54,993 nt of DNA from Halanaerobium salsuginis. Its GTDB lineage: Bacteria; Bacillota; Halanaerobiia; Halanaerobiales; Halanaerobiaceae. Below, one piece after another: positions 51,267 to 53,051 of the stretch. The position numbers and the translations under genes are program-made. The DNA is taken from assembly GCF_900114545.1 (NCBI RefSeq), contig NZ_FOTI01000014.1, positions 11,098 through 66,090 on the forward strand, in the 5' to 3' direction. A model generated the notes under the pieces. It was not told where the DNA came from. It worked only from the letters and a program-made list of their open reading frames with translations, and did no database searches. Within the stretch, counting starts at the first letter, position 1. The number at the start of each line of letters is the position of its first letter.

Positions 51267-51282
51267 TGCATTTATCATTCCA
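51267..51282 (-). promoter_or_regulatory. Sigma-54 promoter of the HPr-PTS-glucosidase operon
   Basis: On the minus strand TGGAATGATAAATGCA has GG and GC exactly 10 bases apart, the -24/-12 spacing of sigma-54 promoters. Ten bases would be poor evidence alone, but an almost identical element stands before the other GH1 gene, and a LevR-type sigma-54 activator gene is adjacent. The rest of the 314-base gap holds only the hairpin at 51404-51436. Confidence 0.72.
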
Positions 51283-51403
51283 AAAATTAAAATAATTCTA
51301 AAAAATAATTATTTTCTTAAAATCATTAATATAACAGGCTTTAAGCAGCTTAATTTATTTTTATCTGCTTATACATAATAAAAAAAGATAACTAATATAA
51401 TAA

Positions 51404-51436
51404 AATTAGTGTGCAAAATATTTCTGCACACTAATT
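51404..51436 (-). terminator. Terminator of the GH1 gene, possibly also an activator site
   Basis: AATTAGTGTGCA and TGCACACTAATT form a perfect 12-bp stem with a 9-base loop and are followed on the minus strand by TTTTATTATA. It ends the upstream GH1 transcript. The same GTGTGCA/TGCACAC core recurs at 53146-53174, and both lie 110-155 bases upstream of a sigma-54 promoter, where an enhancer would sit. Confidence 0.7.
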
Positions 51437-51505
51437 ATTAAACCACACATTAAGTTAAATATATTTAGTCAATTTTCTTATAGTCTAAAATTTTATCTTT
51501 AATTA

Positions 51506-52957
51506 TTAGCTTAAATTTTCCCCATTACTTGCAATAACTTTTTTATACCAATTAAATGAATCTTTTTTTAATCTTTTTAAACTACCAATTCCCTGATCAT
51601 CTTGATCAACATAAATAAAACCATAGCGCTTACTCATTTGAGATGTTGAAACACTTATGCAGTCAATTGGGGCCCAACTAGTATAACCAAGTAATTCAAC
51701 CCCCATTTCAACGGCTTTTTTCATTTCTCTTAAATGCTCTCTAAAATAATCAATTCTATAATTATCATGTATCTTACCTGCTTCAACAGTATCCTTAGCC
51801 CCCATACCATTCTCAACAATCATTAAAGGTATTTGATAGCGATCATATAACTCAAGTAAAGAAATTTTAAGGCCAACAGGGTCGATCTGCCAACCCCAGT
51901 CAGTTGATTCTAAATAGGGATTTTTAACTCCTGTCATTGTATTTCCAGCTGTCTTTTCTTTGCTAGAGTCAGAAGATACTGTTCTGGACATATAATAACT
52001 AAATGATAGAAAATCAACAGTATTTTCTTTTAATATTTGTTTATCTGCTTCTTTAAACTTAATATCTATTTTCTCTTTAATTAAATATTTTTTATATAGT
52101 TCGGGATATTCACCCTTAATTTGAATGTCTGCATGAGCAAGATTAGCTAAGTTACTCTGCAAAGCAAGTTCAACATCTTCTGGTTTACAGGTATGAGGAT
52201 AAGTGGTAAGCTTTGTTATCATAGCACCTATTTTACAATCACTCACTACTTGTCGACATTTTTGGGCAGCCAATGCTGCTGCAATATATTGGTGATGTAA
52301 GGCTTGATAAATGTCATTTTTATATTCTCCTTTAGCCGATTGATCTTCTACTATACCAGCAGTAATAAAAGGATGCCTGCTTACACTATCAATTTCATTA
52401 AAAGTTAGCCAATATTTAACATAATCACCAAACTGTTCAAAACATATTTTAGAAAATCTTAAAAATAGTTCAACTAATTTTCTATCTGCCCAACCATTAT
52501 ATTTTAAACTTAACTGCAGAGGCATCTCATAATGGGAAAGAGTAACTATCGGTTCAATCTTGTATTTCTGCAATTCTTTTAAGATTGCAAGATAATAGTC
52601 TATTCCTGCCTGATTAGGCTCATTTTCTTCTCCAGTTGGAAAAATTCTGGTCCAGGCAATAGAAAATCTTAATGCTTTAAATCCCATTTCAGCAAAAAGA
52701 GCGATATCTGACTTATAATTATGATAAAAATCTATTCCTCTCCGCTTAGGATAAAACTTAGTGCTTTCATTTGCAATAGCTTCTTTAATCATTTTAGAAT
52801 CTATTTGGTGTTGGCCGGCATAGTCTTCGACATCTAAATTAGGCTTATACCTCTTAATATCTGCTACTGACATACCTTTCCCTCCTTCATTCCAGGCACC
52901 TTCAACCTGATTTGCCGATATAGCTCCTCCCCATAAAAAGTCATCTCTTAGTTGCAT
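51506..52957 (-). CDS. 6-phospho-beta-glucosidase, GH1 family (separate copy)
   Basis: This second GH1 enzyme has 483 residues. The acid/base Glu is in YWLTFNEID and the nucleophile in [11 protein letters not shown]; the phosphate-binding [10 protein letters not shown] is kept. It has an extra segment at about residues 45-75 ([20 protein letters not shown]) absent from the operon copy, so it may act on a different aglycone or disaccharide phosphate. The ATG at 52957 has GGAGG 8 bases before it; a TTG at 52972 would overlap that region. It has its own sigma-54 promoter and terminator. Confidence 0.9.
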
Positions 52958-53035
52958 ATTATCTACCTCCAATAAAATTTTAGAAAAACTGCTTTATAAA
53001 TAAAAAATACGCTACTTATCTAGTTATATTTAATA

Positions 53036-53051
53036 TGCATTTATTATTCCA
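53036..53051 (-). promoter_or_regulatory. Sigma-54 promoter of the separate GH1 gene
   Basis: TGGAATAATAAATGCA on the minus strand has GG and GC 10 bases apart and differs from the element at 51267-51282 at one base of 16. It lies about 80 bases before the GH1 start. Confidence 0.72.

Follow-up and report, generated by a model that had tools for sequence, protein, structure and literature searches.

In Bacillus thuringiensis, the PRD-containing regulator CelR adjoins a cellobiose PTS operon, and several activator sites (UAS) lie upstream of the -24/-12 promoter of this cel operon, as described in the accessible part of PMC10864463. The same text cites a CelR motif published for Clostridium acetobutylicum (Nie et al. 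2016) and describes the levanase operon of Bacillus subtilis, which combines LevR, a sigma-54 promoter and a UAS at -125. In a survey of sigma-54 regulons in Clostridiales, the targets of CelR include celCA-bglB-celB and celFB, other PRD activators are present as well, and the UAS are mostly located 100-250 bp upstream; the accessible sections of this survey leave the Halanaerobiales unmentioned ('halanaerob' gives 0 matches) and describe no overlap with a terminator (PMC6615313). The nearest precedent for a protein-recognized word that becomes a terminator when present as an inverted pair comes from the DNA uptake sequences of Neisseria and Pasteurellaceae, whose inverted pairs are intrinsic terminators according to the openly available text of PMC1852404.

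The stretch of Halanaerobium salsuginis DNA that was analyzed (54,993 nucleotides, hereafter the window) resembles the B. thuringiensis system in its combination of a PRD enhancer-binding protein, a cellobiose PTS operon and candidate UAS before a -24/-12 promoter. It differs in that the activator of H. salsuginis is broken and a GH1 gene has a second unit of its own; furthermore, the accessible part of the B. thuringiensis account gives no sequences of the sites and makes no mention of a terminator built from a UAS (PMC10864463). The B. subtilis LevR system is alike in activator type, in its sigma-54 promoter and in the distance of its UAS (-125 compared with 109-138 in the window), but as far as that account extends, the levanase operon serves a different sugar and PTS class. 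The inverted pairs described below number two in the H. salsuginis genome, whereas each genome with uptake words contains about 1,000 or more of them, and they do not serve as activator sites (PMC1852404, accessible text). CelR and its UAS are already known. A literature search for a UAS that forms the terminator of the preceding gene found no report other than the uptake-sequence precedent, with subscription papers thinly covered. A search for the half-site word in CelR papers returned unrelated matches only, and in a search for sigma-54 in Halanaerobium the genus was absent among the matches listed. The AGTGTGYA half-site may well be the published CelR motif.

Along the minus strand, the order of the elements is levR remnant, stem, promoter, GH1, stem, promoter, HPr, EIIB, EIIC, EIIA, GH4 and GH1. 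The features, by window coordinate, are as follows.

45939-47357, minus strand: GH1 gene of the PTS operon
47396-48733, minus strand: GH4 gene
48705-49046, minus strand: EIIA gene
49099-50442, minus strand: EIIC gene
50537-50839, minus strand: EIIB gene
50934-51191, minus strand: HPr gene, the first of the PTS operon
51267-51282, minus strand: sigma-54-type -24/-12 element TGGAATGATAAATGCA before the HPr-EIIB-EIIC-EIIA-GH4-GH1 operon, with an orthologous position in L083, L085 and L055
51404-51436, minus strand: hairpin 3' of the GH1 gene, with inverted candidate half-sites at 51408-51415 and 51425-51432 (N9), terminator-like with a T-rich tail
51443-51450, minus strand: ATGTGTGG, which may be a third half-site in degenerate form, located upstream of the first hairpin; its aligned counterpart in H. 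congolense is ATGTGTAA
51506-52972, minus strand: GH1 family gene (beta-glucosidase / 6-phospho-beta-glucosidase type) under the second promoter
53036-53051, minus strand: sigma-54-type -24/-12 element TGGAATAATAAATGCA before the separate GH1 gene
53145-53175, minus strand: hairpin 3' of the levR remnant, with inverted candidate half-sites at 53150-53157 and 53163-53170 (N5) and a weaker T tail
53196-54560, minus strand: remnant of a LevR/CelR-type activator that keeps PRD (PF00874) and EIIA-Man (PF03610) and is missing the HTH and AAA+ domains
54779-54991, plus strand: first part of an ISL3-type transposase gene, adjacent to the broken activator and cut by the end of the contig

A first-pass annotation of this DNA had proposed twin -24/-12 elements that differ by one base. 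Both are present, and as a pair they are unique in the genome, since no further match with at most one mismatch was found in its 2,991,186 bases. The elements carry GG and GC with 10 bases between, are near to TGGCAC-N5-TTGCA and score 0.88 and 0.89 against this consensus. The genome encodes RpoN (PF04552 at C38:74616-75080, E 4e-51), and both units are predicted to depend on sigma-54. The two elements have TGGA at -24, whereas TGGC or TGGT is found in the other 35 sigma-54-positive regions of the comparison presented below. This fourth base is unusual and counts against a composite function of the stems; it may represent early decay or a habit of the lineage.

Stems with a GTGTGCA/TGCACAC core had also been claimed 110-155 bases upstream of the promoters. 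They were located as GTGTGCA-N9-TGCACAC at 51409-51431 and GTGTGCA-N5-TGCACAC at 53151-53169, and their centers lie 138 (HPr side) and 109 bases (GH1 side) from the promoter start, close to the claim. The two inverted pairs in the window compare with 0.01 expected from shuffles. There are only two copies in the 2.99 Mb genome, both upstream of the sigma-54 promoters, which rules out a genome-wide repeat of the DNA-uptake type. As RNA, the stems fold with -19.9 and -19.3 kcal/mol versus shuffled means of -8.2 and -5.6 (z = -5.3 and -6.1). A known RNA family was ruled out, as Rfam gives none in 50900-53400. The further claim that the stems are terminators stood for the first (51404-51436), which scored as terminator-like in the sense (minus) direction in a simple scan and has a T-rich tail; it fared less well for the second (53145-53175), where the scan was positive on the plus strand only and the minus strand tail, CTTTATCTTTAA, is weaker.

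Judging from the sequence comparisons, the stems are best read, with a probability of roughly 85%, as activator half-sites (UAS) that at the same time form the two arms of an intrinsic terminator for the gene before. The arms would present inverted AGTGTG(T/C)A half-sites to a PTS-regulated enhancer-binding protein of the LevR/CelR type, which, once bound, would reach the sigma-54 polymerase at the -24/-12 element by looping. In the transcript, these arms would pair to form the intrinsic terminator of the preceding gene, either the levR remnant or GH1. Transcripts of the preceding gene would end in the same stretch, and the two transcription units would stay separate.

The arrangement was compared across relatives. 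Scanning the genome_contigs collection (84,980 species) with a protein pattern produced 46 loci, of which L126-L128 were dropped as partial and weak; the 46 regions counted are the 43 loci L083-L125, L055 and the two window regions. Sigma-54 elements were sought up to 300 bp from the end of the activator gene (or of GH1), and AGTGTGYA was counted as an exact match in either orientation before the promoter. A sigma-54 element was found within 300 bp in 37 of the 46 regions. In 35 of these 37, an exact AGTGTG(T/C)A is present upstream of the element, compared with a mean of 0.7 and a maximum of 4 in 300 dinucleotide shuffles, controls that overstate the significance since the loci include near relatives. 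An exact inverted pair forming a hairpin was identified in 25 of the 37 (0 in every shuffle). The suggestion made in the first-pass annotation that the stems may be binding sites of the activator is supported by this enrichment at LevR/CelR-linked sigma-54 promoters. Two of the 37 regions (L111, L114) are missing an exact half-site and 12 are missing the exact inverted pair, and both counts weigh against the composite reading. Among the nine regions with no sigma-54 element, eight have no half-site and one (L119) has two.

A stronger form of the composite reading, which is rather unlikely, is that the element operates as a switch. An activator bound to the terminator of its own gene would alter termination, either as a roadblock or by read-through, and would itself be displaced when levR is transcribed through the arms. 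In 14 of 36 orthologues (L087, L088, L091, L102, L104-L108, L114, L116, L117, L122 and L123), the stop codon of levR falls within a half-site-like word, compared with 1 of 365 other genes of these loci, an overlap that is compatible with coupling of the switch type. Were the switch true, regulator level, terminator read-through and operon activation would be mechanically coupled in one 35-bp element.

A different explanation is that the stems are ordinary intrinsic terminators that share sequence by chance, with the activator binding elsewhere or nowhere. Both stems are terminator-shaped, and the stem of the tuf-secE terminator, GCATGTGCAG...CTGCACATGC with a variable loop, is also conserved in the genus. 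Since we know of no sigma-54 promoter role for that stem, and its conservation shows that conservation of a stem within the genus is no proof of binding, the weight is placed on the enrichment of the word across loci and on promoters that are uncoupled from terminators. Chance is improbable on these grounds. The word spans Halanaerobium, Clostridium, Fusibacter and Heyndrickxia, and the other parts of these loci contain little of it: in the 35 sigma-54-positive database loci, 71 half-sites fall within the 5,619 region bases and 15 in the rest of 613,160 bases, where no inverted pair was found. In H. salsuginis, the inverted pair is confined to the two positions in the window. The word also occurs outside of hairpins, as direct copies in the clostridial loci; L110 contains four, the last of which is the 5' arm of a hairpin. 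Conservation of the motif where terminator and promoter are uncoupled had been put forward as a check, and it holds. Away from the 3' end of levR, 9 of 18 further sigma-54 promoters (score of at least 0.92) have an exact half-site. Five of the nine follow EIIA genes (L097, L101, L112, L115, L121), and in those loci there is neither a sigma-54 element nor the half-site word behind levR. In the three that precede EIIC genes (L107, L123, L124), no T-run comes after the half-sites, and one is a second promoter of L088. In L114 and L116, an apparently separate T-tailed hairpin was seen by eye (unscored) downstream of the half-site-like words. From its presence at the EIIA and EIIC promoters and outside of hairpins, the word follows the promoter and not levR or the terminator.

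The tuf-secE stem, GCATGTGCAG/CTGCACATGC, was observed in L011, L013, L015, L017, L018 and L021, where it is not linked to sigma-54 operons (gene names were assigned by eye).

It is equally improbable that the stems are activator sites only and look like terminators as a side effect of an inverted site lying in AT-rich DNA. The second window stem does have a poor T tail, the inverted pair of L124 is followed by 2 T in 10 bases with no T-run, and at the EIIC promoters of L107 and L123 the inverted pairs are not followed by a T-run. Against this, at least 6 T are present in the 10 bases after the stem in 22 of the 25 exact pairs, and the hairpin itself also appears to be selected because the flanking stem pairs covary beyond the half-site. 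The four base pairs that flank the 8-bp word are paired in 88 of 100 cells across the 25 pairs, as compared to a mean of 63.9 and a maximum of 78 in 5000 row shuffles. Within the word, the variable core position is C/G in 10 pairs, T/A in 10, T/G in 5 and C/A in 0, and since C/A is never seen, these changes follow the pattern expected of RNA pairing. A pairing signal outside the word and a separate sequence signal inside it point to two functions.

Least credible is an RNA-level antiterminator or attenuator (RAT-like) for a PRD-type RNA-binding protein: BglG/LicT-type PRD proteins do bind RNA hairpins that overlap terminators (PMC12628678, accessible text), but the regulator linked to the stems belongs to the AAA+/HTH type, no Rfam family covers the stems, and an antiterminator site was rejected on the position of the stems upstream of the sigma-54 promoters and thus outside the leader of the regulated operon.

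Returning to the stems as composite sites, the difference between their spacers (5 and 9 bases) had been raised as an objection to one simple dimer site. Among the 25 pairs, the spacer between the 8-base words is 5 (1 pair), 6 (1), 7 (7), 8 (12) or 9 bases (4). The objection falls given this family range, in which the window occupies both ends and contributes the sole 5-base spacer. It is therefore likely that the half-site, rather than a rigid palindrome, is the unit. Pair centers lie 48-175 bases upstream of the promoter element across the family. The 34 spacings between direct copies are distributed as 8-12 (21), 18-22 (8), 28 (4) and 39 (1). At a period of 10.5, 6 of 20000 uniform draws match the observed helical phasing, a figure that is inflated by tandem duplication and for which periods of 9-10 fit equally well or better; the phasing is a hint only.

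The obvious candidate to bind the half-sites would be the LevR/CelR-type activator. Its intact orthologues (L054, L055, L056) consist of an N-terminal HTH, an AAA+ sigma-54 interaction domain, PRD and EIIA-Man, and the HTH region is nearly constant (mostly xRxxxSRYLN) over the aligned activator loci. In H. salsuginis, the N-terminal half of the activator has been lost. The best match of the H. congolense activator to the H. salsuginis genome covers residues 345-831 with one stop, and an in-frame TGA lies at 54630-54632 by the levR remnant. When the N-terminal 316 residues of the H. saccharolyticum activator were searched genome-wide, only another enhancer-binding protein was found (30% identity, C32). 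A PF00158 search of the genome for a replacement activator gave the C32 protein as the sole strong match, with all others at 33 bits or less. With the N-terminal half lost and the searches for a replacement negative, the regulon of the H. salsuginis genome has probably been orphaned and would be silent. The genome is rated 99.9% complete, but the missing half may lie in an assembly gap between element copies.

The C32 protein (C32:95680-96402, L069) has CBS-domain-like and Fis-HTH-like regions and is encoded beside a PrdC/RnfC-like gene, all named by eye. The activator of H. congolense (L083 1-95) starts at a contig end and is without its first 78 residues (HTH) in the N-terminal search; this truncation is possibly a second, independent break.

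The organization of the locus differs between H. salsuginis and its relatives. In H. congolense (L083), H. polyolivorans (L085) and L055, levR is followed by the stem and promoter and then directly by HPr, EIIB and so on, and an intervening GH1 unit is absent. The first hairpin of the window, now 3' of GH1, is nearly identical to the hairpin 3' of levR in H. congolense (L083/L053), and the HPr-side region aligns with its H. congolense counterpart with a score of 79 (shuffled maximum 37). Outside the stem core and promoter, the two intergenic regions of the window align to each other with a local score of 26 (shuffled mean 24.5, maximum 39). They are not mutually alignable, and a recent duplication of one intergenic cassette is ruled out; the shared stem core was thus not copied with its surrounding DNA. 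These comparisons suggest that GH1, along with a stem and promoter of its own, was added as a unit between levR and the ancestral stem.

With one short sequence apparently serving as both enhancer and terminator, two elements that are usually annotated separately would coincide. Annotation tools that call such stems a terminator would miss the enhancer and hence the regulon. The composite arrangement recurs in Halanaerobium and Clostridia wherever the promoter sits, whether after levR, EIIA or GH1, and the relatives, with their varying numbers of half-sites, offer a natural series for studying how enhancer-binding proteins of the PRD type read their sites. The window captures a regulon in which the activator is broken and the sites remain.

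One locus presents the array in the other direction. In L089 (10320-10530, Firmicutes UBA6806), the half-site array is reversed with five TACACAC copies, and by eye an everted pair seems capable of forming a hairpin.
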